A DNA stretch of 64,000 bases from Faecalibacterium sp. An122 (GTDB lineage: Bacteria; Bacillota; Clostridia; Oscillospirales; Ruminococcaceae): the NCBI RefSeq assembly GCF_002160895.1, contig NZ_NFLL01000003.1, forward strand, positions 124,001 through 188,000, in the 5' to 3' direction. Every line of letters begins with the position of its first letter. Within the stretch, counting starts at the first letter, position 1. This document shows, one piece after another, positions 16,252 through 51,522 of this stretch. A program made the translations under genes and the position numbers. The notes under the pieces are model-generated. The model was not told the DNA's origin and did no database searches. It saw only the letters and a list, made by a program, of their open reading frames with translations.

Positions 16252-17301
16252 TTATCCCCGCAGAGGCATGATGTCCTCCGGCGCGGCGGACAGACAGGCG
16301 GGGGCCAGGGGCTGGCCGTCGGTGAGGGTGGTCTTGGAGATCTTCCACCACAGACGGGTTTCGCCGTCGGGGGCGGTGCAGATGAGATTCCAGTCGAAGG
16401 GATTTTCGCTGGTGGAGGTGACCTTCACCGGCAGGGCGTTGCAGGCGTCCGGCGGGCAGGGGGTAAAGTTGTGGGCCCGCACGCCGACGGCGTTGCAGTC
16501 GGGGGGCACCGGCTGGGCCAGGCGCAGATCGACGCCCCAGCCGGTCAGGCGGACGGTGTGGCCGTCCACCGGGGTGCAGGGCAGAATGTTCTTGCAGCCG
16601 GTGAGCCGGGCGGCGGTGACACTCTGCGGGTCGGCAAAGACCTCCTTGGTGGGGCCGGCCCGCAGCACCTGGCCGTCGTCCATGACGATCATCTCCCGGC
16701 ACAGGCGGTAGGCCTCGTCCCGGTTGTGGGTGACCAGCAGGGTGGTGCCTGCAAAAGAGGACAGCAGGCTGCCCACTTCGCTCTCCACTTCTTCCCGCAG
16801 GTAGCTGTCCAGGGCGCTGAAAGGCTCGTCCAGCATCAGGATGCGGGGGCGGCCCACCAGGATGCGGGCCAGGGCGGTGCGCTGCTGCTGGCCGCCGGAC
16901 AGCTGGGACGGGCGGTGCCGGGCCACCTCTTCCAGGCGCATGGCCCGCAGCATATCCCGGCAGCGGGCCCGGCGGGCGGCGGGGTCTTTTTCGGCCTGCA
17001 GGCCGCAGAGGATGTTCTGTTCCACCGTCATGTTGGGGAACAGGGCATAGTTCTGGAACAGCAGCCCCACGCCCCGCTGCTGGGGCGGCAGGTCGATGCC
17101 TTTTTCGCTGTCAAACAGCACCCGGCCGTCCAGCACAATGCGGCCCCGGTCGGGCTTGACGATGCCGGCGATGCAGCGAAGGGTCATGCTTTTGCCGCAG
17201 CCCGAGGCCCCCAGAATCGCCGTGGCGGTGTTTCCGGCGGTGAATCGGGACCGGAGGGTAAAGCCGTCAAAGGCTTTTTCAATGTTGACTTCCAGGCTCA
17301 T
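16252..17301 (-). CDS. modC: ModC-type molybdate/tungstate ABC transporter ATP-binding protein
   Basis: A 349-residue ATPase with Walker A G-A-S-G-C-G-K-S, signature L-S-G-G-Q-Q-Q-R, Walker B I-L-M-L-D-E-P-F and switch H in L-V-T-H-N. The C-terminal 110 residues form a TOBE/MOP-like region rather than a full di-MOP domain. It energises oxyanion import with ModB and ModA. The start ATG (17301) overlaps the permease stop by four bases; the longer open frame upstream lies inside modB. It is the last gene of the cofactor/uptake operon. Molybdate and tungstate transporters of this class cannot be told apart by the ATPase. Confidence 0.88.
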   Translation of the reverse strand: MSLEVNIEKAFDGFTLRSRFTAGNTATAILGASGCGKSMTLRCIAGIVKPDRGRIVLDGRVLFDSEKGIDLPPQQRGVGLLFQNYALFPNMTVEQNILCGLQAEKDPAARRARCRDMLRAMRLEEVARHRPSQLSGGQQQRTALARILVGRPRILMLDEPFSALDSYLREEVESEVGSLLSSFAGTTLLVTHNRDEAYRLCREMIVMDDGQVLRAGPTKEVFADPQSVTAARLTGCKNILPCTPVDGHTVRLTGWGVDLRLAQPVPPDCNAVGVRAHNFTPCPPDACNALPVKVTSTSENPFDWNLICTAPDGETRLWWKISKTTLTDGQPLAPACLSAAPEDIMPLRG

Positions 17302-17969
17302 GCGCGGACACCTGCTTTCTGTTTGCGTTCCAGCAGGTTTACCGCCAGCAGCACCACCGCCGAGATGGCGATGTCCACCAGGACCCACTGCATGGCGCCT
17401 GCCTCATCGTTGGTGCGCCAGAGCTGGTATACCGTGGTGGCGATGGTGGCGGTTTTGCCGGGGGTGTAGCCGGCGATCATGCTGGTGGCGCCGTATTCTC
17501 CCAGAGCCCGGGCAAAGGCCAGCACGGTGCCGGCCAGAATTCCCTGGCGGCAATAGGGCATCCGCACCCGCCAGAAAATCCAGGTGTTGGACAGGCCCAG
17601 GGTCTGGGCCGACCAGGCCAGGGTCTCGTCAAAGCTCTCAAACGCGCCCCGGGCGGTGCGGTACATCAGGGGAAAGGCCACCACAATGGAGGCGAAGATG
17701 GCGCTGTACCAGTTCATCACCAGCTTGATGCCGAAGTGCTCCGCAAAAAAGATGCCCAGCGGCCGCTTGGCCCCCAGCAAAAGCAGCAGGAAATAGCCCA
17801 CCACGGTGGGCGGTAGTACCATGGGCAGGGTCAGCACCACATCCAGCACACCCTTGAGGGTGCGGGGGAGTTTGGCTATGTAATAGGCGGCAAAAATGCC
17901 CAGAAAGAACACCGCCGCGCAGCTGATGAGGGCAATGCGCAGGCTGTTCCAGAGAGGATACCAGTCCAT
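17298..17969 (-). CDS. modB: ModB-type molybdate/tungstate ABC transporter permease
   Basis: A 223-residue permease with five to six predicted TMs and the EAA-like loop E-T-L-A-W-S-A-Q-T-L-G-L-S-N-T-W-I-F-W-R-V-R-M-P split across the middle. A-L-G-E-Y-G-A-T is typical of ModB. It forms the membrane channel for the oxyanion delivered by ModA. It lies 84 bases after modA, with a hairpin (17992-18024) between them that probably reduces read-through so that the binding protein is made in excess. Confidence 0.9.
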   Translation of the reverse strand: MDWYPLWNSLRIALISCAAVFFLGIFAAYYIAKLPRTLKGVLDVVLTLPMVLPPTVVGYFLLLLLGAKRPLGIFFAEHFGIKLVMNWYSAIFASIVVAFPLMYRTARGAFESFDETLAWSAQTLGLSNTWIFWRVRMPYCRQGILAGTVLAFARALGEYGATSMIAGYTPGKTATIATTVYQLWRTNDEAGAMQWVLVDIAISAVVLLAVNLLERKQKAGVRA

Positions 17970-18053: not shown

Positions 18054-18956
18054 TTACAGTGCGGTGAAGCCTACGCTCTCAAAGACGGCGCCGGCGTCTT
18101 CGGTCCGCAGGTAGTCCAGGAAGGCCTGGGCTGCATCGGCATGGGGAGCGGCCTTCATCACGGCGGCGGGATAGATGATCTGGCCGCACATCTCCTTGGT
18201 GGCCTCGTCCACCGGGGTGATGCCGGCGCTGTAGGCGTCGGTGCAGTACACCACGCCGGCGTCCACGCTGGCCTCGATGACCTGAGTGGTGACTTCCTTG
18301 ACGTTGGAGCCGTAGGTAATGACGCCGGCAGCGGCCAGAGCCTCCTCGTCCAGGCCATAGTAGGCCAGAATCTTCTGGGTGTACTGGCCCACGGGCACGT
18401 CGCTGTTGCCCATGCAGAACAGGATATCCTGGGCTTCCAGGTGCTCGGCCAGGGCGTCAAAGCTGTCGATGCCCTTGTCGCTGCCCTCCGGCACGCAGAG
18501 AACCACCTTGTTTTCCAGCAGGTCCACACGGCTGTCGCTGTCCACGCAGTCCAGGCCCTCGGTGTTCACCTCGGCGGAAGCGGCGCTGTCCAGCTGGTCC
18601 ATCTGCTTCTGGCCGGCGGAGATGAACAGGTCGCAGTCGGCGCCCTCCTGAATCTGGGTCTTGAGGGTGCCGGAGGAATCAAAGTTGAAGCTGAAGGTCA
18701 CGCCGGGGTTCTCCACCGAATAGGCCTCGCCGATGGCGGTGAGGGTCTCGGTGAGGGAGGCGGCGGCAAAGACGATCAGCTCCACCGGCTCGGCTGCGGC
18801 AGCCGAAGAAGCCGGTGCGGCCGAGGAGGCCGCAGAAGCGGCAGAAGAGGCGGTGCTGCTGGAAGAAGAACTTCCGCAGGCGGTCAGCACAGCGGAAGCG
18901 CCGGCCAGACCGGCGGCATACAGGAAACTGCGGCGGGAGATCCGATTGTTTTTCAT
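18054..18956 (-). CDS. modA: ModA-type molybdate/tungstate-binding lipoprotein
   Basis: A 300-residue substrate-binding protein. The N-terminus has a twin-arginine-like S-R-R-S-F-L-Y motif and a lipobox L-T-A-C, followed by a Ser/Ala linker of about 25 residues. The mature part begins with E-L-I-V-F-A-A-A-S-L-T-E, the hallmark of ModA oxyanion binders, and later has D-A-G-V-V-Y-C-T-D-A. It captures molybdate or tungstate outside the membrane for ModBC. Given the neighbouring tungsten-type aldehyde oxidoreductase, tungstate is a reasonable physiological substrate, but the sequence alone does not decide it. Confidence 0.9.
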   Translation of the reverse strand: MKNNRISRRSFLYAAGLAGASAVLTACGSSSSSSTASSAASAASSAAPASSAAAAEPVELIVFAAASLTETLTAIGEAYSVENPGVTFSFNFDSSGTLKTQIQEGADCDLFISAGQKQMDQLDSAASAEVNTEGLDCVDSDSRVDLLENKVVLCVPEGSDKGIDSFDALAEHLEAQDILFCMGNSDVPVGQYTQKILAYYGLDEEALAAAGVITYGSNVKEVTTQVIEASVDAGVVYCTDAYSAGITPVDEATKEMCGQIIYPAAVMKAAPHADAAQAFLDYLRTEDAGAVFESVGFTAL

Positions 18957-19037: not shown

Positions 19038-19970
19038 TTATTTGCGGGCGCACTCGCCGTCCAGGCCGGCGGCAATCCGCACGCCGTGCTCCAGACTGGG
19101 CAGGATGTACTCCAGGTTTTCCTTCACCGCCTTGGGGCTGCCAGGCAGGTTGACGATGAGGGTCTTGCCCCGCAGGACGCTGGCGCCGCGGCTCAGCATG
19201 CCGCGGGGGGTGATGGACAGGCTGTGGTACCGCATGGCCTCAGCAATGCCGGGGGCGTTGCGGTCGGCCACGGCGCAGGTGGCCTCGGGGGTGATATCCC
19301 GGGGAGAGAAGCCGGTGCCGCCGGTGGTCAGGATCAGGTTGACCTGGCGGCCGTCGGCCAGACGGATCAGCTGGGCCTTCAGGGGCTTCATCTCGTCGGG
19401 CAGGATCATGGTCTCCTCCACCACATAGCCGGCGGCGGTGAGCATCTCCACAATCAGGGGACCGCTCTTGTCCTCCCGCTCGCCGCGGCTGCCCTTGTCC
19501 GACAGGGTGATGACGGCGGCCCGCAGGGGGGGATTCTCCAGGGCGGGCAGCATGGTCACCTCGTCCCCCACATGAATCTCGCCGCCCTGCAGCACCCGGG
19601 CAAACACGCCCTCCCGGGGCATGATGCACTCGCCGGTCTTCTGCTTGATGACGCAGTCGTTGTGGCACTCCTTGCCGATCTGGGTCATTTCCAGCACCAC
19701 GTCGCCGATGGCGAACCGGCTGGTGACCGGCAGGCTGCGGAAATCAAAGCCCTCAATGACCAGGTTCTCGCCGAAAGCGCCGTAGTCCACCCAGATCTTC
19801 TGGCGGAAGGCCTCGATTTTCTCGGCGCTCAGCAGGCTGACCTGGCGGTGCCAGCTGCCGCCGTGGGCGTCCCCCACGATGCCCCATTCAGGGGTGAGGG
19901 TGGCGCTGGGCACTTCGGTCTTGACGGTGCCCCGCTGGGGGCTGGTGCAGATAGCCAGTAACTTTCCCAT
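19038..19970 (-). CDS. MOSC domain - MogA/MoaB fusion protein
   Basis: A 310-residue two-domain protein. Residues 1-140 are a MOSC domain (W-G-I-V-G-D-A-H-G-G, G-A-F-G-E-N-L, and a conserved Cys in I-G-K-E-C-H). Residues about 150-305 are a MogA/MoaB-type molybdopterin-binding domain (A-A-V-I-T-L-S-D-K-G, T-T-G-G-T-G, N-L-P-G-S-P-K-A). MogA-type domains adenylylate molybdopterin before metal insertion by MoeA; MOSC domains handle sulfur or bind the mature cofactor. The fusion joins both steps in one chain and sits six bases after moaA. Confidence 0.9.
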   Translation of the reverse strand: MGKLLAICTSPQRGTVKTEVPSATLTPEWGIVGDAHGGSWHRQVSLLSAEKIEAFRQKIWVDYGAFGENLVIEGFDFRSLPVTSRFAIGDVVLEMTQIGKECHNDCVIKQKTGECIMPREGVFARVLQGGEIHVGDEVTMLPALENPPLRAAVITLSDKGSRGEREDKSGPLIVEMLTAAGYVVEETMILPDEMKPLKAQLIRLADGRQVNLILTTGGTGFSPRDITPEATCAVADRNAPGIAEAMRYHSLSITPRGMLSRGASVLRGKTLIVNLPGSPKAVKENLEYILPSLEHGVRIAAGLDGECARK

Positions 19971-19976
19971 GATCCT

Positions 19977-20954
19977 TTATCCTCCAATTCGATACATCCC
20001 GCGGGTGGCGGGGATGGCTTTGCTGTCAAAGTGATGTTCCAGGGGTTTGTTCCAGATGGTGTTCCGGATGGCCTGCAGCAGGGCCGCGTCGTCGACACCG
20101 CTGCGCAGCAGGGCCCGCAGGTCGCATCCCGCCTCGCTGGCGAGGCAGGGCCGCAGAAAGCCCTGGCTGGTCAGCCGCACCCGGTTGCACTGGCCGCAGA
20201 ATTTGCCGTGGACGGCGGCAATCAGGCCGATGCTGCCCTTCCAGCCGGGGGCGGTGTAGTAGACGGCGGGGCCGTCTCCCAGCGCGTGGCTCTCGGCCTC
20301 GGGCAGGGGAGCCAGGCCGGGCCAGCGGCGCTCAAACCGGGCCAGAAGCTCGGGCCCCGAGATGCAGGGCATGGCTGCCCCAAAGCCGATGGGCATCATC
20401 TCGATGAACCGCACCTGCAGGGGCCGGTCGATGGCTAGGGCGGCCAGGTCTTCCAGCTCGCCCTCGTTGACCCCCACCTGGGGCACGCAGTTCAGCTTGA
20501 CCGGCAGGGGGCTTTCCAGGGCGGCCTGGAGGCCCTTCTGGACGGCGGCGAACTCGTCCCGGGCGGTGATGCGGGCAAACACCTGGGGGGACAGGGTGTC
20601 CAGGCTGATGTTCACGCTGTCCAGCCCGGCCTCCAAAAGGGCCGGCAGCTGCTGGGCCAGCAGGATGCCGTTGGTGGTCATGGTCACCTTGCGGATGCCG
20701 GGGATGGCCTTGAGGCCGGCCACCAGCTGGTCCACCCCTTTGCGGACCAGGGGCTCACCGCCGGTGACCCGGACGGTGTCCACCCCGCAGGCGGCAAACA
20801 GGGCCGCCAGGCGCAGGAACTCCTCATAGGTCAGGATGTCTTCCCGCTCCAGCTTCTCCACCCCGTCCGGCATGCAGTAGCGGCACCGCAGGTTGCACAG
20901 GTCGGTGACCGAGAGGCGCAGGTAGTGGATGTCCCGCTGTGTTGCATCAAACAT
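19977..20954 (-). CDS. moaA: GTP 3',8-cyclase MoaA
   Basis: A 325-residue radical SAM enzyme that starts molybdopterin synthesis by converting GTP to 3',8-cH2GTP. The N-terminal cluster motif is C-N-L-R-C-R-Y-C (CxxxCxxC); the second [4Fe-4S] cluster, which binds substrate, is C-G-Q-C-N-R plus a Cys 12 residues on. The T-G-G-E-P-L SAM motif is present. The protein ends in Y-R-I-G-G, keeping the C-terminal Gly-Gly needed for catalysis in known MoaA. It overlaps moaC by 8 bases. Confidence 0.95.
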
Positions 20955-21444
20955 AGCCGCCCTCCGCCCGGATGTACAGGCCGCTCTTGCCGCCGCTCTT
21001 TTTCTCCAGATGGATTTCGCCCAGCTCCATCCCCTTGTCCACGGCCTTGCACATGTCGTAGATGGTGAGCAGGGCGGTGGAAACGCCGGTGAGGGCTTCC
21101 ATCTCCACGCCGGTGACGCCGCTGGTCTTGACGGTGCACAGGGCCTCCACCGCCTGCCGCTCGGGCAGGAGGTTGAACTCGATGGACACCTTGGTCAGGG
21201 GCAGGGGATGACACAGGGGGATCAGTTCGCTGGTGCGCTTGGTGGCCATGATGCCCGCAATGCGGGCCACACCCAGCACGTCGCCTTTTTTCACCGTGCC
21301 GTTCTGGACGGCGGCGAAGGCCTCGGCGTTCATGGTAATGATGCCGTGGGCGGTGGCCTCCCGGGCGGTGACCGGCTTTTCGCTCACGTCCACCATCACG
21401 GCATTGCCGGCGGCATCAAAATGGGTCAGGTTGTTTTCGTTCAT
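20947..21444 (-). CDS. moaC: Cyclic pyranopterin monophosphate synthase MoaC
   Basis: A 165-residue protein with M-V-D-V-S-E-K at the N-terminus, the conserved I-P-L-C-H-P-L-P-L block, V-E-M-E-A-L-T-G and M-C-K-A-V-D-K-G, all hallmarks of MoaC. It turns the MoaA product into cPMP. The ATG at 21444 is chosen since MoaC proteins begin near here and AAAGAG lies upstream; twelve upstream residues in the open frame are ribosome site and leader. The next gene, moaA, overlaps its end. Confidence 0.93.
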
Positions 21445-21510
21445 GAATGAATACTCTTTCTCTATCTCAGAACGTTTCAACGTCCGTGGTCTCTTTTGTG
21501 GAAAACCGGC

Positions 21511-22530
21511 TCAGCAGTGGCCGAAGCCGCAGTTGGGCCAGGTGCAGTTGGCGCAGCCCAGGCACAGGCCGCCCTCGCCCAGACGGGCGATGTCCACGGC
21601 GGTGATGGGATCATCCGCCAGCAGACGGGGCAGCAGCAGATCGAAGATGGTCCGCTTGGCGTACATGACGCAGCCGGGCAGGCCGCACACCGGCACGCCG
21701 TCCAGATAGCTCACCAGGAACATGGCGCCCGGCAGCACCGGCGCGCCGTAGGTGATGATCTCGGCGCCGGTGTTCTTGATGGCCAGGGGGGTCCGGTCGT
21801 CGGGGTCCACGCTCATGCCGCCGGTGGTGAAGATCAGCTCACAGCCGGCCTCTTTGGCCTCCAGGATGGCGGCGGTGATGCCGGCGGGGTCGTCGTCGCA
21901 GACCTTGTGGAACAGCATCTCGCAGCCGTATTCGGCCAGCTTGCCCACCAGAATGGGGGTGAACTTGTCCTCGATGCGGCCCTTAAAGACCTCGCTGCCG
22001 GTGGTAATCACGCCGAACTTCTTGGCCTGGAAGGGCAGCACGTTGAGGATGGGCTCGTCACCGGCAGCCTGCTGCATGGCGTCCATCTTTTCCTGCTCGA
22101 TCACCAGGGGGATAATCCGGGTGCCGGCCAGCTTCTGGCCCTTTTTCACCGGCAGGTCCCCGTGGATGGTGGCAATCATCATCTGGGGGGTGCGGTTCAC
22201 CGCCAGCAGAGCCTCCCGGCGGATCTTCAGCAGGCCGTCACAGTCGGCAATCAGCTCGATCTTGCCCTCTTTGGGCTCGGTGCCGTGGATGTTCTTGCCG
22301 GCGGCCGCCTTGTACAGCAGGGCTGCGGCCTCGTCCTCGTGGAGGATGCCGGGGGTCTTCTCCCAGACATACAGGTTCTCCTTGCCGATGCTCAGCAGCA
22401 CCGGAATGTCCTCGGGCTGGACGATGTGGCCCTTGCGGAAGCGGGCTCCCTTGAACTCGCCGGGGATAATCTGGGTAATATCGTGGCAGAGCACCTGGCC
22501 TGCCGCGTCAACAGTGCGGATCAGTTTCAT
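21511..22530 (-). CDS. MoeA/MoaB-like molybdopterin-binding protein with C-terminal cysteine cluster
   Basis: A 339-residue protein. A MoaB/MoeA-type fold lies at about 170-310 (V-I-T-T-G-S-E-V-F, F-T-T-G-G-M-S-V-D-P-D-D, G-L-P-G-C-V). The N-terminal 165 residues are a SAF-like region beginning M-K-L-I-R-T-V-D-A-A-G. The last 17 residues hold five cysteines (C323, C326, C329, C334, C339; CxxCxxCxxxxCxxxxC), a likely metal or Fe-S site. Proteins of this type sit beside tungsto- and molybdo-enzyme genes in Clostridia. A role in metal insertion or cofactor transfer is inferred. Confidence 0.85.
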   Translation of the reverse strand: MKLIRTVDAAGQVLCHDITQIIPGEFKGARFRKGHIVQPEDIPVLLSIGKENLYVWEKTPGILHEDEAAALLYKAAAGKNIHGTEPKEGKIELIADCDGLLKIRREALLAVNRTPQMMIATIHGDLPVKKGQKLAGTRIIPLVIEQEKMDAMQQAAGDEPILNVLPFQAKKFGVITTGSEVFKGRIEDKFTPILVGKLAEYGCEMLFHKVCDDDPAGITAAILEAKEAGCELIFTTGGMSVDPDDRTPLAIKNTGAEIITYGAPVLPGAMFLVSYLDGVPVCGLPGCVMYAKRTIFDLLLPRLLADDPITAVDIARLGEGGLCLGCANCTWPNCGFGHC

Positions 22531-22545
22531 AATTTCACGTTCTCC

Positions 22546-23064
22546 TTACAGGGCCGGCATCTGGGCGCAGATCCAGTCGGCCAGGGCTTCTGTCTCCTCC
22601 AGGCCAAAGTCTGCGCCGGGAATGTCGCCCACAATCGCCAGCGGGTGGAACGAAACGGGGGTCTCGGACACCGCCTTGCGCACCACTTCGATCTTGGGCC
22701 AGCCGCTGGACTTGAAGCCCTCCAGCAGCACCAGGTCGTAGCCGTGGCGCTCAAACAGGGCCAGCAGATCCTGTTCGGTCAGGCGGAAAGTCTCGGTCAG
22801 CAGGTAGCGCTGGCTGGAATACACCGCCACGCCGTCGGCGCCGGCCTCCCGCAGGCGGAAACTGTCGGTGCCGGGGACGTCGGGGGTAAAGTCATGGCCG
22901 TCGTGCTTGATGACGCCCACCTTCAGGCCCCGGCGGCGCAGCAGGGGCAGAAGCTTTTCCAGCAGGGTGGTTTTGCCGCTGTTGTGGACGCCGCTGACCG
23001 CCAGCACGGCGGGCTGTTTCAAGGTCAGTTCGGCGGCAAGGGCCTGTTTTTCTTCACTGTACAA
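22546..23064 (-). CDS. mobB: Molybdopterin-guanine dinucleotide biosynthesis adaptor MobB
   Basis: A 172-residue P-loop protein with Walker A G-V-H-N-S-G-K-T-T, followed by V-G-V-I-K-H-D-G-H-D and Y-D-L-V-L-L-E-G-F-K, all typical of MobB. MobB binds GTP and assists nucleotide attachment to the cofactor; no MobA partner is in the window. I use the TTG at 23064, nine bases after GGAGG, because no ATG or GTG precedes the P-loop at a sensible distance. This overlaps moeA by 11 bases. Confidence 0.85.
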   Translation of the reverse strand: MYSEEKQALAAELTLKQPAVLAVSGVHNSGKTTLLEKLLPLLRRRGLKVGVIKHDGHDFTPDVPGTDSFRLREAGADGVAVYSSQRYLLTETFRLTEQDLLALFERHGYDLVLLEGFKSSGWPKIEVVRKAVSETPVSFHPLAIVGDIPGADFGLEETEALADWICAQMPAL

Positions 23065-24292
23065 AGGAAAGCACCTCCACCGTTTCGCCCGGCTCCACCG
23101 GGCCGCTGCCCGCAGGCAGCTCCACAAGACAGTTGCAGCCGATCATGGCGGACAGGCTGCCCGAGGAGTGTACTTCGGCGTTGCCCTCCCCGGGGATGGC
23201 CACCTCGCCGCCCAGGGCCCGGGCCCGCAGGAAGCGGGTGCCCTTGCTGGCCTTGGAAAAGCCGGTGGTCAGGGTGCGGCGGGTGCGGGGGAGGACGCAG
23301 TCCTCCTCCCGGCGGCCGGCGGCCCGCAGCAGGGCGGGCAGGGCGTACTGTTCCAGCGTTGCCGCCGCCGCAAAGGGGTTGCCCGACAGGCAGAACACCA
23401 GTTTTCCCTCCAACCGGGCTGCCAGCATGGGGCTGCCGGGTTTCTGGGCCACCCCGGCAAAGAGAATTTCAGCGTGCAGGGTTTCCAACACCTGGGGCAG
23501 ATAATCCTTCTGCCCCACCGAGACGCCGCCGCTGGTGATGACTGCATCGCAGCGGGTCAGCATCTCCTCCATCTGCCGGGCGATCTGGTCCGGGTCGTCC
23601 GAGCAGTGGCGGCGCTCCACGGCAAAGCCCATCTGGCCCAGGCGGGCGGCGTTCTGGATGCCGTTGGCGTCGTAAATTTTGCCGGGGGCCCAGGGCTCGC
23701 CCGGGTCCAGCAGCTCGCTGCCGGTGGCCAGCACGCCCACCCGGAAGGTCCGGTGGACCGGCACTTCGGCATAGCCCTGGCCCGCCAGCACGCCCAGATG
23801 GGCCGGGGTGAGGGCCGTTCCCTCCGGGGCAATCACAGCCCCGACGGCAATATCCTCCCCGCGGAATACCACGTTCTGGTTGGGCTTGAGGGCGGCGTAA
23901 ATCTGGACGGTCTCCTCGCCGCCGTCGGTCAGTTCCTGCATCAGAATGCAGTCGGCCCCTTCGGGCAGGGGGGCGCCGGTCATGATGCGGGCCGCGCAGC
24001 CGGCAGGCAGGGCCGCGGCGGGGGCGTCACCGGCGTAGAGCTTCATCACCACCGGCAGAGAAACCGGATTTTCCCGGCAGGCCCCGGCTGTGTCGGCGCT
24101 GTGCAGAGCGTAGCCGTCCAGGGGGCTGCGGTGGAAGGGAGGCTGGTCCATCCGGGCGCACAGGTCCCGGGCCGCGATCCGGCCGCAGGCTGCGTCCAGG
24201 GGAACAAGTTCCGCCTCGGGCCGGGGCAGAGCTGCCGCCGCGTCCAGGACGCAGCGCAGGGCCTTGGCGGGAGCGCAAAAAGGCTGTTTCAT
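23054..24292 (-). CDS. moeA: Molybdopterin molybdotransferase MoeA
   Basis: A 412-residue MoeA: domain II/I motifs (P-L-D-G-Y-A-L, I-M-T-G-A-P-L-P-E-G-A-D), the molybdopterin-binding domain (V-G-V-L-A-T-G-S-E-L, I-T-S-G-G-V-S-V-G, C-L-S-G-N-P-F-A), and a C-terminal domain IV. It inserts molybdate or tungstate into adenylylated molybdopterin. The ATG at 24292 follows GGAGG by nine bases. As first gene of the nine-gene cofactor/uptake operon it is preceded by a structured leader and terminator (24387-24549). Confidence 0.93.
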   Translation of the reverse strand: MKQPFCAPAKALRCVLDAAAALPRPEAELVPLDAACGRIAARDLCARMDQPPFHRSPLDGYALHSADTAGACRENPVSLPVVMKLYAGDAPAAALPAGCAARIMTGAPLPEGADCILMQELTDGGEETVQIYAALKPNQNVVFRGEDIAVGAVIAPEGTALTPAHLGVLAGQGYAEVPVHRTFRVGVLATGSELLDPGEPWAPGKIYDANGIQNAARLGQMGFAVERRHCSDDPDQIARQMEEMLTRCDAVITSGGVSVGQKDYLPQVLETLHAEILFAGVAQKPGSPMLAARLEGKLVFCLSGNPFAAAATLEQYALPALLRAAGRREEDCVLPRTRRTLTTGFSKASKGTRFLRARALGGEVAIPGEGNAEVHSSGSLSAMIGCNCLVELPAGSGPVEPGETVEVLSFVQ

Positions 24293-24386
24293 GAAAAAAT
24301 CCTCCAAAAGGCCCGGGCGGGGCCTGCTCTGCTATGGCTCAGAGGGCCCGGCCCGGGGATATTCTGTTCAAAGGCAGGTGAAAAAA

Positions 24387-24425
24387 GCGGAGACGTTTTG
24401 ATTTTGAAAACCAAAACGCCTCCGC
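24387..24425 (-). terminator. Terminator upstream of moeA (operon end or riboswitch expression platform)
   Basis: GCGGAGaCGTTTTG (24387-24400) pairs with CAAAACGcCTCCGC (24412-24425), 13 of 14 positions, and is followed on the minus strand by TTTTTT. It lies 95 bases before the moeA start, so it can either end the upstream operon or control moeA. Confidence 0.8.
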
Positions 24426-24742: not shown

Positions 24743-25666
24743 TTAGTCGCAGTAATCGTCCACGTCGCTGATGGCCTTGGCATAGCGGCGGGTGAGATAC
24801 TTGGTAGAGAAGAGGAACCGCTCGTTCTGGTTGTTGGTCAGCTCCTCGATGTCGGCGTATTCCGGACGGGCCTGCATGGCCTGCCAAGTCTGCTCGACCT
24901 CCTCCTGAGACAGGTTGTAGGGCGAGCGGCGGAAATACCGCATCGGGGTGGCGCTGGGATAGATGCGGGCGTTGAACCGCACCATCTCGGACACCATGGT
25001 GCACAGATCCTTGTCCTCAATGAGCTGGGCAATCATAGCGTAATTGTCGCTCATGTTGGCGTTGGAGTAGTAGTAGATGTCCTTGGCGCCCTTGCGGGAC
25101 ACAATGTCCTGGCACTGGGGATCCTCCGGCATCTGAGCCAGCAGCTCGTCGGCGTTTTCCACCTCGCTCACCAGCAGAGCATGGGGCGTGACCAGCGCGG
25201 AGGCGGAGCGGGAGCGGATATAGCCCGCCAGCTCCTGCGCGGGGGTCAGCTGGGGCAGCTCAGGGGCGGTGACGGTGGGCTGATCCGCAAAGGGGTCGTT
25301 GGTTGCCTCTGGGGCAGCTGCCAGGAAATCCAGCAGGTCCTGCCCGGCCGGATTCTCCGCGGCGGCTTCCGGGGTGGATGCGGCTGCAGCGTCGGATGCG
25401 GCGGCCTGCTTTGCAGCAAGGGCCGCGGTCTCCTTTTCCACGGCGGCGATCACGTCCTCGCCCGTCTTGGCGGCGCTGCCATCAAACACACTTCCGGTCT
25501 CCTTCAGGCGGCGGGCGGTCTCGCTGGCGGCGTCCATGTCAAAAACCTCCGATTTGGGCTTTTTCTTGGCTGCCATTTCGGCCTTCTGCAGGTCCAGAAT
25601 GATCTGCTCCGGGTCCGAGCCGTCCACCGTGGTGGTGTAACCGGGTTTACGTCTGCCAAACAGCAT
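24743..25666 (-). CDS. YdhW-like protein of the aldehyde oxidoreductase operon
   Basis: A 307-residue cytosolic-looking protein. The first 140 residues are low-complexity, rich in Ala, Glu and Asp. The C-terminal 165 residues look like the YdhW family: D-I-Y-Y-Y-S-N-A-N-M-S-D-N-Y-A, Y-P-S-A-T-P, and F-L-F-S-T-K-Y-L-T-R-R-Y. In Escherichia coli ydhW accompanies ydhV (aldehyde-oxidoreductase family) and ydhY (Fe-S protein), the same set found here. The function of YdhW is unknown. It has only one cysteine pair candidate and no metal motif. It begins 30 bases after the oxidoreductase. Confidence 0.6.
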   Translation of the reverse strand: MLFGRRKPGYTTTVDGSDPEQIILDLQKAEMAAKKKPKSEVFDMDAASETARRLKETGSVFDGSAAKTGEDVIAAVEKETAALAAKQAAASDAAAASTPEAAAENPAGQDLLDFLAAAPEATNDPFADQPTVTAPELPQLTPAQELAGYIRSRSASALVTPHALLVSEVENADELLAQMPEDPQCQDIVSRKGAKDIYYYSNANMSDNYAMIAQLIEDKDLCTMVSEMVRFNARIYPSATPMRYFRRSPYNLSQEEVEQTWQAMQARPEYADIEELTNNQNERFLFSTKYLTRRYAKAISDVDDYCD

Positions 25667-25696: not shown

Positions 25697-27865
25697 TTAT
25701 TCTGCGGTGGTCTCGGCAGCAGCGGTGCTCTGGCTGTAGATGCCGCGGGCCTCCAGATCGTCGGCCATGTCGGACAGGCCGAACTTCTCCAGGGTCTCAC
25801 GGGTGGGAACACCGGTGTTCAGATCCCAGCCGTAGTGGGTGTAGAACATGTCGATGGCCTTCTTCATGTCATCGCGGTCCAGCTTGGTGGTGCCTTCCTC
25901 AAAGGCCTGGAAGTCAGGCTCCTTGTCGAAGACCCAGTCGCAGATGGCGTCGTGCTCCTGGCGCAGGTTGGCGCTGCCGCAGTTCAGCTGGAAGCTGATG
26001 GCGGTCATGGCACGCAGCATCTGGGTGATCTTCTCGCCGGTCTCCTGCAGGCTGGCCTGGGTGTAGGTCTCGCCGGTGACGGCGGTCATGAAATCGGCCT
26101 GCAGATCCAGGTCGCCCTTGTAGTTGCGCTCCTTGGAGGGAGACTGGGTCATGGGCCACATCCAGTTGCACAGGGTGGCGGAGTCGTGGAAATTCTTGTC
26201 GTTGACGCAGTAGGCAGCCAGCTTGACCTTGTTCTCGTTGATCGGAGTGTAGGCCTTGGCGCGGTCGTAGCAGCCCTCGCCGAAGAAGTCTTCCATGACC
26301 TTCTTGGTCACCTCGAAGGGCGCGCCCGAACCGGTCTCGCAGACGATCTCGTGGACCATGCAGTCACGGTTGTAAACCAGGTTGTACAGCATGCCGACCT
26401 GCCATGCCTCAGCAGGGCCGTGGTGGTTGGGATAGCCGTTGTACATCAGGTTGGAGTTGGTGGTGCCGTCGTCGCGGTCCAGCCAGCTCTTGGGCAGGCC
26501 GAACTTCTCCATCATGGCCAGGGTGCCCTTGGCGATGACGGACAGGTCGCCCTCGCCGTAAGCCATGCGGCGGATCAGCTCAACCTCCCAGCGGGGATCG
26601 CCGGCCTTGCACCACTCCCAGGGCAGGGAATCGTACTCTTCGGCGCTGACGTACTTGAGAGCCTCCTCGCGGGGCAGGTTCAGGAACCACTGCAGGTCGC
26701 GGTTCAGGTTGCCGTAGTTGTCCCAGACGCCCATATCGTCCACAGCGTGAGCCCAGGCCAGGTTGATGACCAGCTTGGCGTCGCCCTCGTACTTGAAGTC
26801 GTGCAGGCCGTAGGGGTAGACGCGGTCACCGTACAGGACGGGCATGCAGGTGTTGGAGTTGTGGGTGGGCAGATCGTAATCGGCCAGGGGATCGATGTCG
26901 TACTCGGTGTAGCAGCGGATGGGGCAGGAGGAGCAGCCGCCGTTCTTGACGGTGTACTCAGCAGCCGGAGCGCCGAAGTCGAAGTAGCCCTTGAAGCAGC
27001 GCAGAGCGATCTTGTTGATGTCGTTGTAGGGCTGCTCGCCGGTGTCGATGGGGCCGCCGGGGGCCTTCTTCCACATACGGCCGGGAGCGCCGGACCAGCG
27101 GTTCTTGCCGGAGGTGGCGCTGTACTCAGCCCAGCTCTGGGGCTGTGCGGGGACGTTGTGGTTGTTGTTGCCGCCGATCAGGTTGCCCAGCATGTAGTTG
27201 GACAGCTCCAGAACCTTCTGGGGATCGGCAACCTTGACGCTGCCGGTGCCGCGGACGGCGATGCCCTTCAGCTTCTTGTTGCCCATGGCGGCGCCCAGGC
27301 CGGCGCCGGCGGAGTTGCCGAAGCTGGTGTTCATGGTGGAGTAGTCCACCAGGTGCTCACCGGCGGGGCCGATGGAAGCAGACTCGAACTCGCGGCCGGT
27401 CTGCTCGATCAGCCACTTGTTGGAAGCAAAGGTGCCCTTGCCCCAGATAGCGGATGCGTCCTCCAGAGAGACCTGGTCGTCCTCAATGCGCAGGTAGACG
27501 GGGGTGGAGGAGATACCGGTGATGACGATTCCGTCGTAGCCGGCATACTTCAGCATGGGGCCGATGTGGCCGCCGATGTGGCCGTCGATGATGGACTTGC
27601 CCTTGGACCAGGTGGAACGGAAGGTGACGTTCATGCGGCCGGAGCAGGGCACGCCGGAACCGGTCAGGGGGCCCACACCGAAGATGATGGGGGTCTTCTC
27701 ATCGTACGGATCCAGATCCATGGGAGCCTCATCGTACATGATGCGGTAGCCCATGCCCATGCCGCCGATATATTCATGGTATTTGGTGTCGTCCTCGGTG
27801 GTGATCTCACCGGTGGTCAGGTTGACGCGCAGGATTTTACCTGCCCAGCCATAAGTTTCAGCCAT
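25697..27865 (-). CDS. YdhV-type tungsten-containing aldehyde:ferredoxin oxidoreductase
   Basis: A 722-residue member of the aldehyde ferredoxin oxidoreductase family. The N-terminal pterin-binding domain has W-A-G-K-I-L-R-V-N-L-T-T-G and G-V-G-P-L-T-G-S-G-V-P-C-S-G-R. The [4Fe-4S] ligands are in G-G-C-S-S-C-P-I-R-C (CxxCxxxC), with a fourth Cys probably in A-T-L-C-N-W. A K-K-L-K-G-I-A-V-R-G-T-G motif marks the bis-pterin site. The family oxidises aldehydes with a tungsten bis-pyranopterin. There is no signal peptide, although its probable electron partner has a Tat signal. The start follows TAAGGAGG. Substrate unknown. Confidence 0.93.
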   Translation of the reverse strand: MAETYGWAGKILRVNLTTGEITTEDDTKYHEYIGGMGMGYRIMYDEAPMDLDPYDEKTPIIFGVGPLTGSGVPCSGRMNVTFRSTWSKGKSIIDGHIGGHIGPMLKYAGYDGIVITGISSTPVYLRIEDDQVSLEDASAIWGKGTFASNKWLIEQTGREFESASIGPAGEHLVDYSTMNTSFGNSAGAGLGAAMGNKKLKGIAVRGTGSVKVADPQKVLELSNYMLGNLIGGNNNHNVPAQPQSWAEYSATSGKNRWSGAPGRMWKKAPGGPIDTGEQPYNDINKIALRCFKGYFDFGAPAAEYTVKNGGCSSCPIRCYTEYDIDPLADYDLPTHNSNTCMPVLYGDRVYPYGLHDFKYEGDAKLVINLAWAHAVDDMGVWDNYGNLNRDLQWFLNLPREEALKYVSAEEYDSLPWEWCKAGDPRWEVELIRRMAYGEGDLSVIAKGTLAMMEKFGLPKSWLDRDDGTTNSNLMYNGYPNHHGPAEAWQVGMLYNLVYNRDCMVHEIVCETGSGAPFEVTKKVMEDFFGEGCYDRAKAYTPINENKVKLAAYCVNDKNFHDSATLCNWMWPMTQSPSKERNYKGDLDLQADFMTAVTGETYTQASLQETGEKITQMLRAMTAISFQLNCGSANLRQEHDAICDWVFDKEPDFQAFEEGTTKLDRDDMKKAIDMFYTHYGWDLNTGVPTRETLEKFGLSDMADDLEARGIYSQSTAAAETTAE

Positions 27866-27877
27866 TGTAGTTCCTCC

Positions 27878-28522
27878 TTACAGTTCCATGTAAGCAGCCT
27901 GTGCTGCGCTGGTGACGGCATCCCAGTCCACGATGGACAGAGCGCCGGACGGGCAGCCAGCCACGCAGGCACCGCAGGCGATGCACTTGGACGACTTGCC
28001 GGTCTCCGGGTTGACGGTGGGCATGTGCCAGGGGCAGGCCTCGACGCAGGCGCCGCAGCCGATGCACTTGTCGGTATCCACCACGCGGATACCCTGGGCA
28101 TTGGTGGTGATAGCCTTCTGCGGGCAGGCGTTGCCGCAGGCGGGATCTTCACACTGGCGGCAGGTGTCGGGGAAGTAGACCCAGCAGTTCTCGTCGCCCG
28201 ACAGCAGGCCGTTGCCGGCGCCGTCCAGGTTCAGGCGGCGCTGGATCTTGACGCGGCTGATGTAAGAGGAGCATACGCCGTCATTGGACAGGGTGCAGTT
28301 GATCTCGCAGCGCTGGCAGCCGGTGCACAGGTCTGCATTGACCACCAGCAGGCCCTGGGGCAGAGCCCAGGTGGCCACGGCGCCGCTGTCCACCTGCTCC
28401 TGAGAGCAGCCGAAGAGGGACAGCATGGATGCAGAGAGGGTGAGCCCTGCAAGGCTCTTGCCCGAGATCTTCATGAACTGGCGGCGGGTCATGTCAGCCG
28501 TCAGAAAATCAATTTTTGCCAT
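27878..28522 (-). CDS. Tat-type exported 4x[4Fe-4S] ferredoxin (YdhY-like)
   Basis: A 214-residue protein. The N-terminus carries T-R-R-Q-F-M-K, a hydrophobic stretch and F-G-C, a twin-arginine signal with a lipobox-like end. The rest holds four cluster motifs: C-T-G-C-Q-R-C-E-I-N-C, C-R-Q-C-E-D-P-A-C-G-N-A-C, C-I-G-C-G-A-C-V-E-A-C and C-I-A-C-G-A-C-V-A-G-C, as in DMSO-reductase-type electron-transfer subunits. It probably receives electrons from the aldehyde oxidoreductase 12 bases downstream and passes them to the FMN_bind protein. Tat export of a pre-loaded Fe-S subunit could carry the enzyme with it. Confidence 0.9.
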   Translation of the reverse strand: MAKIDFLTADMTRRQFMKISGKSLAGLTLSASMLSLFGCSQEQVDSGAVATWALPQGLLVVNADLCTGCQRCEINCTLSNDGVCSSYISRVKIQRRLNLDGAGNGLLSGDENCWVYFPDTCRQCEDPACGNACPQKAITTNAQGIRVVDTDKCIGCGACVEACPWHMPTVNPETGKSSKCIACGACVAGCPSGALSIVDWDAVTSAAQAAYMEL

Positions 28523-28544
28523 AGCTTCTATTCCTCCGTTGAGG

Positions 28545-29462
28545 TCACTCTGCGCAGAGCACCTCGGTCACATAGAAATACGAATTGTTGACGATGTCCG
28601 TTACCGCCGCAGAGGTAATGGTGGCGCCGGACAGGGCGTCCACCTCGGTGAGGTTGGCGCCCACCGCGCCGGACTCGGTCTGGGTCGTGGTCAGACCAGC
28701 CTGAGCCATGCGGTAAGCGGCCTGCTGCTCGGGGGTCTGATCGGCGAAGGGTACTGCCTGCTCCTGGCCGTCCATGGCGCTCTTGCTCAGGCCGGCGGTG
28801 TACAGGTTGCGCCGTGCCACAGCCTCGGGGCTGGAGTCCAGCGGCGGAGCCAGTTCATCGCTCAGGGGCTGGCCGTTCATGGCCGAGAGGGTCAGACCGG
28901 CTGCATACATCTTGCGGGTGGCCTCTGCTTCCGCGGAAGTATCCGACACATTCCACTGGGTGGGGTCGAAGTCCTCGGCGGCAGGAGCTTCCTCCGACGC
29001 TGCGCCGGCAGCGGCATAGACTGCACCGGTGGCCGGATCGGTCACGGTGTAGGTTTTGCCTGCCAGCGTGAAGGGAGCCACGCCCTCATACTGGGACGTA
29101 AACTCCGGGTTGACGCACTGGCCGCCCAGGGTGTCGGTCTCTCCCTGAGAGAGAATCTCCACCTTGGAAACATTGCCCTCCGCGTCCATGGTCACGGCAG
29201 CCTGCACATCGCTCTGGAAGCCTTTTTTGGTTCCCTCCACGCGGTAGCTGCCATCGTCGAGCTGGTACACTGCGCTGATGCCGTAGGCGGCTGCATCCGC
29301 CTCAGACACCGGCAGCAGAGTACCTGCAACCGTGGTGCGTGCGTTCTGCAAGGAGATCAGACCGACCGCCATTGCAATGGTCGCAACGCCCATGGCCGCA
29401 TAGCCCGGCAGTCGTTTGCGCCACAGCGGAGCCGGGGCAAACGGGTTGGTTGCCTGCTTCAT
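28545..29462 (-). CDS. Membrane-anchored FMN-binding protein with internal repeats
   Basis: A 305-residue protein: one TM (about 20-40), then an extracytoplasmic FMN_bind domain. Its C-terminal half has D-A-L-S-G-A-T (T281), the flavinylation motif to which ApbE attaches FMN, as in RnfG/NqrC. Between the two halves of the domain (about 150-270) lies an insertion with three repeats of R-x-x-Y-x-A-G-L-x-x-S-A-M-x-G-Q type (183-198, 218-233, and a degenerate one at 251-264). It is the first gene of the operon and likely the terminal flavin carrier outside the membrane. Confidence 0.82.
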   Translation of the reverse strand: MKQATNPFAPAPLWRKRLPGYAAMGVATIAMAVGLISLQNARTTVAGTLLPVSEADAAAYGISAVYQLDDGSYRVEGTKKGFQSDVQAAVTMDAEGNVSKVEILSQGETDTLGGQCVNPEFTSQYEGVAPFTLAGKTYTVTDPATGAVYAAAGAASEEAPAAEDFDPTQWNVSDTSAEAEATRKMYAAGLTLSAMNGQPLSDELAPPLDSSPEAVARRNLYTAGLSKSAMDGQEQAVPFADQTPEQQAAYRMAQAGLTTTQTESGAVGANLTEVDALSGATITSAAVTDIVNNSYFYVTEVLCAE

Positions 29463-29560: not shown

Positions 29561-29590
29561 ATTCTATCATGGGTCTGAAAAGTAAGTCAA
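29561..29590 (-). promoter_or_regulatory. Sigma-A promoter of the aldehyde oxidoreductase operon
   Basis: On the minus strand TTGACT (29585-29590), 18 bases, TAGAAT (29561-29566). The leader then holds an imperfect hairpin (about 29517-29550, GACCG/CGGTC ends) before the first start codon. Confidence 0.75.
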
Positions 29591-29636: not shown

Positions 29637-30386
29637 TTATGACACAGAGCGCGGGTGCTTCCTGGCGCACAGGAGCTGCAGGCCGTATTTCCCTGCCAAA
29701 TCCAGGGAGGAAAGGGTGGGCATGCTCTTGCTGACCAGGGCTCCGGCCCCGGCCCGGATGGCTTTTCGCACCATGTCTTCCGGCACCCGGCCGCTGGTGT
29801 ACAGGATGCACTCAGCCAGCGGCACACCGCCCAGCAGAGCACAGCCCACCGCCTTGTCCAGGGCGTTGTGGCGGCCGATGTCCTCGCACTGGTACAGAAT
29901 CTGCCCGCGGCGCATGATCAGACAGCTGTGAACCGACCGGGTGGCCTGGTACAGGGGCAGCCCGGCGCTCATGGCAGCGGTCAGGGTGTCCACCCATTCG
30001 GGTTCCAGGGCCAGGGAAGGAGAGGGGCGCAGGGAATGCAGTTCCGCAGGCCGGGCCAGAGGCAGGTTGTCGGTGCTGCTGGCCACCTCCTGGACGGCGG
30101 CCCGGGGGGCCGCCAGCGGGTGGATCAGCTCCACCTCGATTCGGGACCCGTCGGCGCAGACCGAAATCCGGTCCACCTCTCCGGCCGATGCGATCCAGCC
30201 CTCGGTCAGCAGACGGCCCAGCGCCATTTGGGGCAGCAGCGCCGGGGTGCACACTACCCGGAAGGCAGGCTGTCCGTTGACCAGGATGGAAGCCGCATGC
30301 TCACAGGCCAGCACCGCCGGGGTGCCGTCCGGCAGCCGGGCCGGGCCGCAGCCCGGCCGGGACCCAAAGGCATCATAAATCTGCAT
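29637..30386 (-). CDS. fdhD: FdhD family sulfurtransferase lacking the CxxC loop
   Basis: A 249-residue FdhD protein, identified by L-T-E-G-W-I near the N-terminus, C-E-D-I-G-R-H-N-A-L-D-K, Y-T-S-G-R-V-P-E-D-M-V-x-K and the final L-A-x-K-Y-G-L-x-L. FdhD transfers sulfur from IscS to the metal of formate dehydrogenase. The loop that normally carries C-G-x-C reads V-A-S-S-T-D-N (about 101-107), so the known catalytic cysteines are absent; C155 (S-V-H-S-C) is a possible substitute. No formate dehydrogenase is in the window, while a tungsto-enzyme operon follows. The start is the ATG at 30386, five bases after the upstream gene. Confidence 0.87.
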   Translation of the reverse strand: MQIYDAFGSRPGCGPARLPDGTPAVLACEHAASILVNGQPAFRVVCTPALLPQMALGRLLTEGWIASAGEVDRISVCADGSRIEVELIHPLAAPRAAVQEVASSTDNLPLARPAELHSLRPSPSLALEPEWVDTLTAAMSAGLPLYQATRSVHSCLIMRRGQILYQCEDIGRHNALDKAVGCALLGGVPLAECILYTSGRVPEDMVRKAIRAGAGALVSKSMPTLSSLDLAGKYGLQLLCARKHPRSVS

Positions 30387-30391
30387 AGGCC

Positions 30392-30619
30392 TTATTCTCC
30401 TATATAGGTAAAGCGGGGCTGCACCTTGCCGTCCCGGTCCACCTGCTCGCACCACATGGAGGCCGGACGCACCCACAGGCCGCCCTCCCCATACAGGGGA
30501 CGGTAGACCACCATTTCTTCTTCGGTCTCGCTGTGGCGGGCCATCCCGATCACTTGGTATTCGTTTCCCTTGAAATGGCGGTAACGCCCGGGCCGGACAT
30601 CGTACTGAAAAGGCTTCAT
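30392..30619 (-). CDS. DUF1653 family protein
   Basis: A 75-residue protein of the DUF1653 family, with R-H-F-K-G-N-E-Y-Q-V-I-G, M-V-V-Y-R-P-L-Y-G and the final V-x-P-R-F-x-Y-I. The fold is a small beta barrel of unknown function. The ATG at 30619 lies seven bases after AGGAG; another ATG six bases upstream is too close to it. fdhD follows after five bases, so the two are co-transcribed. Confidence 0.85.
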   Translation of the reverse strand: MKPFQYDVRPGRYRHFKGNEYQVIGMARHSETEEEMVVYRPLYGEGGLWVRPASMWCEQVDRDGKVQPRFTYIGE

Positions 30620-50652: not shown

Positions 50653-51522
50653 TCAGGCCTGGATGGCGTCGAGGCTGGTCTGCTTGCCGCCGTAGATGCC
50701 CATGGGCTCCACGTGGATGCCGGCCACGGTCACCAGGTGGGTGCCGTTCTGCTCATTGAAGTCGTCCAGGTAGGGCTGATGCTGGAAGTAGTTGGTGTCG
50801 ACGGTGCCATCCTCCACGATGTTGTTGGGGATGATGTAGTCGTCGTACTCCTGGATGTCCAGGGTGATGCCCTTGGCCTCCAGAATGGGGACGCAGACCT
50901 CCAGCACCTCGCAGTGAGGAGCGGGGGTGGCGGCGCAGCTGACGGTCTGGCCGTTCAGTGCGTCGTAGTCCACGGTGGGGTCATAGCCGTCGGTGGGGTT
51001 CTCCACCACCGACACCACGGCGCCGCCGTACTGCTCCAGCATGAAGTCCTTGACCTGCTGGCTCTCCAGGGCAGCGGCCAGAGCCTTGATGAGGGGGTTC
51101 TCCTCGTTGCCTTCCTTGCAGACCAGCACGTTGACGTAGTCGGAAGTGCCGTCCTCCATGGCCAGAGCCTGGGTCATGGGGTCCAGACCGGCAGCGATGG
51201 CGTAGTTGGAGTTGATGACCGCGTAGTCCTCATCCTGCAGGACGTTGGGAACCTGGGCGGCCTCCACCTCGTCGATGACGATGTTGTGGGGGTTCTCGGC
51301 GATGTCGTTCTTGGTGGCGGTGATGCCGGCACCCTCCTTCAGGGTGAAGAAGCCGTTCTTCTCCAGCAGCTGCAGGGCGCGGGCCTCATTGGTGGTGTCG
51401 TTGGGCACAGCCACATGGAGCTGGGCCGAGCTGCCGTTGCCGGAGGAGCAGGCGGCCAGGGCGGCGGCTGCGGCGGCAGCACCGGTGACTTTCAGGAAAT
51501 TGCGGCGCGAAATCTTCAGCAT
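50653..51522 (-). CDS. metQ: Methionine-binding lipoprotein MetQ with twin-arginine-like signal
   Basis: A 289-residue NlpA-type protein. N-terminus M-L-K-I-S-R-R-N-F-L-K, then an Ala-rich hydrophobic stretch and lipobox L-A-A-C. The mature part has V-A-V-P-N-D-T-T-N-E-A-R-A-L, typical of MetQ, and L-F-Q-like late motifs. It binds methionine for MetNI. The ATG at 51522 follows AGAGAGG. First gene after the Met T-box, so its expression follows uncharged tRNA-Met. Confidence 0.93.
   Translation of the reverse strand: MLKISRRNFLKVTGAAAAAAALAACSSGNGSSAQLHVAVPNDTTNEARALQLLEKNGFFTLKEGAGITATKNDIAENPHNIVIDEVEAAQVPNVLQDEDYAVINSNYAIAAGLDPMTQALAMEDGTSDYVNVLVCKEGNEENPLIKALAAALESQQVKDFMLEQYGGAVVSVVENPTDGYDPTVDYDALNGQTVSCAATPAPHCEVLEVCVPILEAKGITLDIQEYDDYIIPNNIVEDGTVDTNYFQHQPYLDDFNEQNGTHLVTVAGIHVEPMGIYGGKQTSLDAIQA

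Follow-up and report, generated by a model that had tools for sequence, protein, structure and literature searches.

The window, a stretch of 64,000 nucleotides of Faecalibacterium sp. An122 (assembly GCF_002160895.1, contig NZ_NFLL01000003.1, positions 124,001 to 188,000), carries on its minus strand a unit of four genes in the order: a gene for a flavin mononucleotide (FMN) binding membrane protein (the FMN gene), ydhY, ydhV and ydhW, with intergenic gaps of 22, 12 and 30 bp. To judge from its sequence, the unit is the Faecalibacterium version of the ydhYVW genes of E. coli and belongs to Class V, clade 41, of the WOR family, a kind of system which has already been described. New here are the linkage to tat and Rnf genes, an active-site residue specific to one branch of the enzymes and the fold of YdhW. 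Composition, signals, motifs and gene linkage are seen in the sequence itself; the model which we build on them, with about an even chance of being right as a whole, is that of a YdhV-type enzyme which sits on the outer side of the cytoplasmic membrane and acts as a terminal reductase fed by Rnf. A first-pass annotation, made from the DNA letters alone, had listed three of the genes, all of which were found in place on the minus strand, and had left out ydhW and the borders of the unit.

The assignment relies on profile matches and on gene content. YdhV matches the two Pfam domains AFOR_N (2.3e-63) and AFOR_C (6.5e-33) of the aldehyde oxidoreductase (AOR) family, scores 864.8 bits over 708 residues against the NCBIfam model PRK09849, just under the cut-off of 868, and is 45% identical to E. 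coli YdhV and 95% identical to the YdhV of a Faecalibacterium metagenome-assembled genome (MAG). YdhY is identified by PRK09898, the model of E. coli YdhY (241.8 bits, cut-off 213), while YdhW comes near to PRK09947 with 123 bits, below the cut-off of 203. A WorL of the YdhV subfamily, a WorS with a signal for the twin-arginine translocation (Tat) system and further subunit genes, here ydhW and the FMN gene, are thus all present, and this makes the arrangement less exceptional than the first-pass annotation had implied (PMC13328260). According to that paper, Class V accounts for more than one tenth of the WORs, has members in E. coli and among abundant gut anaerobes, and has yielded no activity for any of its enzymes; in the text covered, no route is described for the flavin subunit, no link to Rnf is made, and C. 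somerae is the one case in which tat linkage is mentioned.

The export signal is found on YdhY, which has a twin arginine followed by a hydrophobic region, a lipobox, and four CxxC(x2-4)Cx3C motifs whose first cysteines are C66, C121, C153 and C180; the twin-arginine lipoprotein signal and motifs for the four Fe-S clusters earlier proposed for this ferredoxin partner could be located as claimed. The twin arginine is kept in all of the approximately 32 homologues read, from loci of Bacillota, Fusobacteriota and Spirochaetota, with E. coli, which has RL, as sole exception. In YdhV the conserved domain begins 3-10 residues from the N-terminus in all aligned relatives, which leaves no room for a signal, and none is present on any of the 13 proteins; the description of a signal-less enzyme of the AOR family was borne out. 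Since YdhV has no signal of its own, it would ride on YdhY as a hitchhiker. As side observations, YdhY of E. coli K-12 (L005:8855-9478) reads TRLEFL and its YdhX (L005:5349-6014) TRRKFV, and in an Anaerocolumna MAG ydhY lies in two frames (L018:5670-6070), perhaps because of a fault in the assembly or because the gene is broken.

Two tatA genes and a single-copy tatC are present in the genome, as is ApbE, so that the absence of Tat genes, which would have spoken against export, is not what the genome check returned. Outside Faecalibacterium, tatC lies at most 4 kb from ydhV in 21 of 26 fetched loci belonging to several Bacillota families, Fusobacteriota and Spirochaetota; in one of the remaining five a tatA is present, and the flanks of three are truncated. 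In one member of the family (G114) the gene order is ydhY-ydhV-ydhW-tatA-tatC. The 119 genomes sampled from the family include three with TatC and two with YdhY, both of the latter TatC-positive (hypergeometric p ~4e-4, not corrected for phylogeny). At a threshold of E<=1e-3 the TAT_signal_seq model gave 16 and 9 matches in two Faecalibacterium genomes and none in the other 117. As the matches are confined to the TatC-bearing genus, such signals are no general habit of the lipoproteins of the family, and the worry that twin arginines on lipoproteins mean nothing here was rejected. Tat export of the folded L-S pair, one of two possibilities offered by the first-pass annotation, is strongly supported by the linkage of tatA and tatC and by the way in which Tat signals track TatC, and location of the YdhY-YdhV system at the outer face of the membrane is very probable from these sequence comparisons.

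Use of Tat appears unusually broad in this one genus. Signals of the type SRRxFLK are found in Faecalibacterium on many lipoproteins and solute-binding proteins, such as ModA and a MetQ-like protein (window positions 18054-18956 and 51451-51513; loci L041-L050), whereas nearly all other sampled family members have neither TatC nor such signals.

The active site of YdhV differs from that of the aldehyde oxidases. In the alignment with canonical AOR the Fe-S cysteines are conserved, but the position of Glu313 of P. furiosus AOR is occupied by Asp331 in the YdhV of the window, by Asp or Glu throughout the branch carrying the FMN gene, and by Gly in the other branch, to which E. coli and Cetobacterium belong. 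A 2025 review describes Cys336 of E. coli YdhV as an additional metal ligand otherwise found only in the benzoyl-CoA reductase subunit BamB, and reports that the second-shell residues found in aldehyde oxidases are missing from YdhV, which seems to favour Mo-bis-molybdopterin (MPT) as cofactor (PMC12096430). With Glu313 replaced and a Cys protein ligand predicted for the metal, YdhV probably falls outside AOR in the strict sense. Because of the extra Cys ligand and the altered second shell, aldehyde oxidoreductase is doubtful as a name for the activity and, judged from sequence, probably wrong; its earlier use in that sense found no support. The E. coli operon is regulated by FNR, as are other anaerobic molybdoenzymes (PMC10845959), and an earlier paper counts it as a predicted Ydh reductase (PMC4257093). 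In a Cetobacterium MAG a canonical AOR with EYE motif (L035:3302-5104, minus strand) stands beside the clade 41 enzyme.

As to the metal, a Mod transporter is encoded in the cluster, and a Cetobacterium TupA used as query, run without a positive control, found no match in the genome; given the transporter and this weak negative, Mo is at least as likely as W. Tungsto-enzyme, like aldehyde oxidoreductase, was a family label rather than an observation; it found no support here, and the metal may be Mo or W.

The FMN protein is likely to be the partner of YdhY and YdhV, to judge from its distribution and features. A single membrane anchor is preceded by RKR, and by the positive-inside rule the C-terminal domain is predicted to lie outside; the motif at T281 is SGAT, and SGAT or TGAT is found in 12 of 13 homologues. 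A single ApbE, itself an exported (extracytosolic) lipoprotein, is encoded in the genome, so that both a motif of the type [S/T]GA[S/T] predicted to be outside and the enzyme for ApbE flavinylation are present. Anchor, RKR and SGAT all agree with the earlier description of a membrane-anchored third protein with an extracytoplasmic flavinylation motif. The FMN gene lies directly ahead of ydhY in all seven Faecalibacterium loci, and is in the cluster at five further loci of other genera; in the YdhV tree it is characteristic of a single well-supported branch (13 of 17 rows). A helical insertion, which in Faecalibacterium exceeds in length that of the other homologues, interrupts the FMN_bind domain of the protein, whose scores lie below the rnfG and nqrC cut-offs (RnfG TIGR01947, 36.6 bits, cut-off 102). 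The predicted structure, with a mean predicted local distance difference test score (pLDDT) of 59, was used for topology only. The insertion (28690-29010, residues ~150-257) contains repeats of the type YxAGLxxSAMxGQ, of which Faecalibacterium has at least two and the other genera have fewer, and in strain APC923/51-1 (L009:6404-7318) the motif reads SSAT instead of SGAT.

A complete rnfCDGEAB operon is found on the same contig at about 100 kb from the ydh unit. In one MAG locus (L037) all elements form a single cluster: RnfCDGEAB-mobB-FMN-ydhYVW-moeA-[C_GCAxxG_C_C/FMN_bind]-tatA-tatC. This cluster, together with the known extracytosolic flavins of Rnf, RnfG and RnfD (PMC11334425), makes Rnf the best candidate for the donor. 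That electrons flow in this direction, from Rnf to a reductase, we hold somewhat short of an even chance.

Further flavoproteins were noted. The bracketed gene of that cluster (L037:12386-13369) encodes a Tat lipoprotein fusing a C_GCAxxG_C_C redox domain to FMN_bind, and its orthologue in the genome of the window stands alone (contig C12; L051, L065). Five FMN_bind proteins of about 640-690 residues (L052, L053, L054, L055 and L057), most with lipoprotein-like signals, are also encoded; four of them contain FAD_binding_2, as in fumarate-reductase-like enzymes, and they are predicted to be secreted flavin reductases. A link to the flavin-mediated electron shuttling of F. prausnitzii would be speculation, the operon being present in only 13 of 31 species.

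In the model which we prefer, Mo (or W) would be loaded into YdhV in the cytosol, YdhV would bind YdhY and the folded pair would leave through Tat, with lipidation of YdhY after export giving the pair its lipid anchor. The FMN protein, flavinylated by ApbE at T281, would serve as redox relay at the membrane. Electrons from ferredoxin or NADH would enter Rnf, pass its RnfG/RnfD flavins and proceed by the FMN protein and YdhY to YdhV, which would reduce a substrate outside the cell, a respiratory branch without need for quinone or cytochrome; YdhW probably helps in assembly or quality control. The outward electron chain to an acceptor proposed by the first-pass annotation could still hold, but YdhV as the terminal enzyme outside the cell would fit better. 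More specifically, and rather doubtfully, this gut butyrate producer may pass electrons from Rnf through an extracytosolic flavoprotein to a Mo/W reductase of the benzoyl-CoA reductase type, exported by Tat and with Cys as a metal ligand, which would act on a gut compound, again with no quinone or cytochrome needed.

Several observations weigh against the model of an exported, Rnf-fed reductase. Within Faecalibacterium tatAC is unlinked to the operon, and since TatC is present in 30 of 31 genomes and YdhY in 13 of 31, Tat has other clients there. Rnf adjacency was seen in the L037 locus only, and Rnf is common and has a role of its own. In L010, the nearest relative from outside Faecalibacterium, and likewise in L019 and G114, no FMN gene lies next to ydhY. 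The failure of WOR41 of C. somerae (CsWOR41), an enzyme of the Gly branch which bound mostly W, to oxidise any of 46 aldehydes counts in favour of a reductase, but it is weak as a negative result, since the assay used a partly purified protein from which the S subunit was absent (PMC13328260). The main competing explanation runs the chain in the opposite sense: an exported YdhVY would oxidise a substrate outside the cell, an aldehyde or another compound, and hand the electrons through the FMN protein to the secreted flavin reductases or backwards into Rnf. The five large FMN_bind proteins, four with FAD_binding_2, could be acceptors, and the acidic Asp/Glu331 kept by the FMN branch at the Glu313 position means that its chemistry could differ from that of the Gly branch. 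Yet a metal site with a Cys ligand and surroundings like those of BamB speaks against chemistry on aldehydes (PMC12096430), the secreted reductases showed no conserved linkage, and we regard this explanation as unlikely.

The place of YdhV and its wiring may also be questioned. If only YdhY were exported or anchored, its signal being a relic or a mere membrane anchor, YdhV would stay in the cytosol like classical AORs; it has no signal, the twin arginine is lost in E. coli YdhY (TRLEFL), and such a location has been predicted for some Coriobacteria (PMC4257093). This becomes very improbable when set against the RR kept in all non-E. coli homologues read, the tatAC genes linked to the operon, the Tat signals which track TatC, and a four-cluster protein which needs folded export. 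It is improbable, if somewhat less so, that the FMN protein is a neighbour rather than a redox partner and that YdhY is wired elsewhere, to Rnf directly or to the C_GCAxxG_C_C/FMN_bind Tat lipoprotein of contig C12. The three loci without an FMN gene next to ydhY are in line with such wiring, as is the presence of this second FMN_bind Tat lipoprotein in the L037 cluster and, as orthologue, in the genome of the window; the clustering of the FMN gene in seven of seven Faecalibacterium loci and five loci of other genera opposes it.

YdhW, the last gene of the unit, is according to the structure prediction, in which the E. coli row was left out of the alignment, an internal duplication of a winged-helix unit. 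The conserved core (residues 140-300) is modelled as two winged-helix units with pLDDT 95-98, and profile comparison by hhalign shows one half to be homologous to the other (97%, E 1.9e-11), where the reversed control reached 0.3%. Taken singly, the units match winged-helix proteins with Z ~7 and a root-mean-square deviation (rmsd) of ~2 A, but no significant match for YdhW was found in the PDB (best Foldseek E 6e-3) and no function follows. Tat proofreading chaperones of the TorD type have a different fold, all-helical and not winged-helix. A TorD/DmsD-type chaperone is not favoured for YdhW, which has no Pfam match and is modelled as a tandem winged helix, though an unlisted family is possible. 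That it acts in assembly or quality control is guessed from its unvarying position beside ydhV.

The unit has fdhD upstream; moeA, mobB, another gene like moeA, moaC, moaA, a fusion of MOSC and MogA, and modABC follow downstream. YdhV is not the sole molybdoenzyme of the genome, this being ruled out by contig C7, which encodes an enzyme of the xanthine dehydrogenase family; enzymes with PF00384 were not found. The features of the unit and its neighbours are collected in the table.

Table. Features of the ydh unit and of the neighbouring genes (positions in the window)
Feature	Positions	Strand	Basis or remark
FMN-binding membrane protein, 305 aa	28545..29462	-	Pfam PF04205 1.6e-13, two stretches
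Membrane anchor of FMN protein, single transmembrane segment, aa ~18-38, RKR on inner side	29349..29411	-	hydropathy; helix 21-40 in low-confidence model
SGAT flavinylation motif S278-G-A-T281	28620..28631	-	Thr281 codon 28620-28622
YdhY / WorS, four-[4Fe-4S] protein with Tat lipoprotein signal, 214 aa	27878..28522	-	PRK09898
Twin arginine R13-R14 of YdhY, in TRRQFMK, followed by hydrophobic h-region	28481..28486	-	
Lipobox Cys39 of YdhY (SLFGC)	28406..28408	-	
YdhV / WorL, AOR-family Mo/W-bis-MPT enzyme, 722 aa, no signal	25697..27865	-	PRK09849, AFOR_N, AFOR_C
Cys340 of YdhV, predicted extra metal ligand	26846..26848	-	E. coli YdhV Cys336 by alignment (ligand role: PMC12096430)
YdhW, conserved third core gene, predicted tandem winged-helix fold	24743..25666	-	PRK09947, predicted fold
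Promoter-like site TTGACT-18-TAGAAT, extended -10, between fdhD and FMN gene	29561..29590	-	consensus match only
Terminator-like hairpin at end of four-gene unit	24387..24425	-	18 bp stem, 3-nt loop, T run
FdhD-type sulfurtransferase, next upstream gene	29637..30476	-	Pfam PF02634 3.2e-46
MoeA	23054..24307	-	profile matches
MobB	22546..23127	-	profile matches
Second MoeA-like molybdopterin-binding protein	21511..22530	-	PF00994 2.4e-26
MoaC	20947..21480	-	
MoaA	19977..20954	-	
MOSC and MogA/MoaB-type fusion	19038..19970	-	
ModA, own ISRRSFL signal and lipobox	18054..18956	-	TIGR01256 above cut-off
ModB	17298..17969	-	TIGR02141 above cut-off
ATP-binding cassette ATPase in ModC position	16252..17388	-	no equivalog cut-off reached

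The neighbourhoods, with tatAC, Rnf, a flavin relay and a Cys-ligated site, turn a class described as membrane-associated and of unknown function into an electron path which can be tested. They suggest screens for a substrate reduced outside the cell by the whole complex, rather than for aldehydes with the L subunit alone. Should the path prove right, Faecalibacterium would have an energy-conserving outlet besides butyrate formation.

Comparison with known systems places the unit as follows. To the AORs of P. furiosus and A. aromaticum YdhV is related by its homologous N-terminal pterin domain (5.5e-41 to 1AOR) and by the aligned Fe-S cysteines; it differs in the replaced second-shell Glu, the extra Cys ligand and the predicted exported partner. 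The FMN protein shares with RnfG and NqrC the membrane anchor and an extracytosolic FMN_bind domain with SGAT, but it is far under their cut-offs, has its FMN_bind domain split by the helical-repeat insertion and lies here outside any rnf operon. BamB of the Class II benzoyl-CoA reductases is part of a soluble multi-subunit complex. It has 653 residues against the 722 of YdhV, which pairs with a predicted Tat-exported Fe-S subunit, and no partner genes bamC-I were found among the genes read at 16-31 kb of the window; both proteins are of the AOR family, have the extra Cys metal ligand and have lost the second shell of AOR (PMC12096430). In the ydhYVWXUT operon of E. coli, whose YdhV is a bis-Mo-MPT enzyme, Y, V and W are homologous and in the same order, and the position of the extra Cys is shared (Cys336/Cys340). 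In place of the FMN protein E. coli has YdhX (Fe-S, RR signal), the cytochrome-like YdhU and YdhT; its YdhY is without the twin arginine, and Gly stands at the Glu313 position where the YdhV of the window has Asp. With Class V, clade 41, of the WORs (Putumbaka et al. 2026, PMC13328260) the unit shares all the defining features, a WorL without signal, a WorS with Tat signal and at least one further gene, and differs in none of them.

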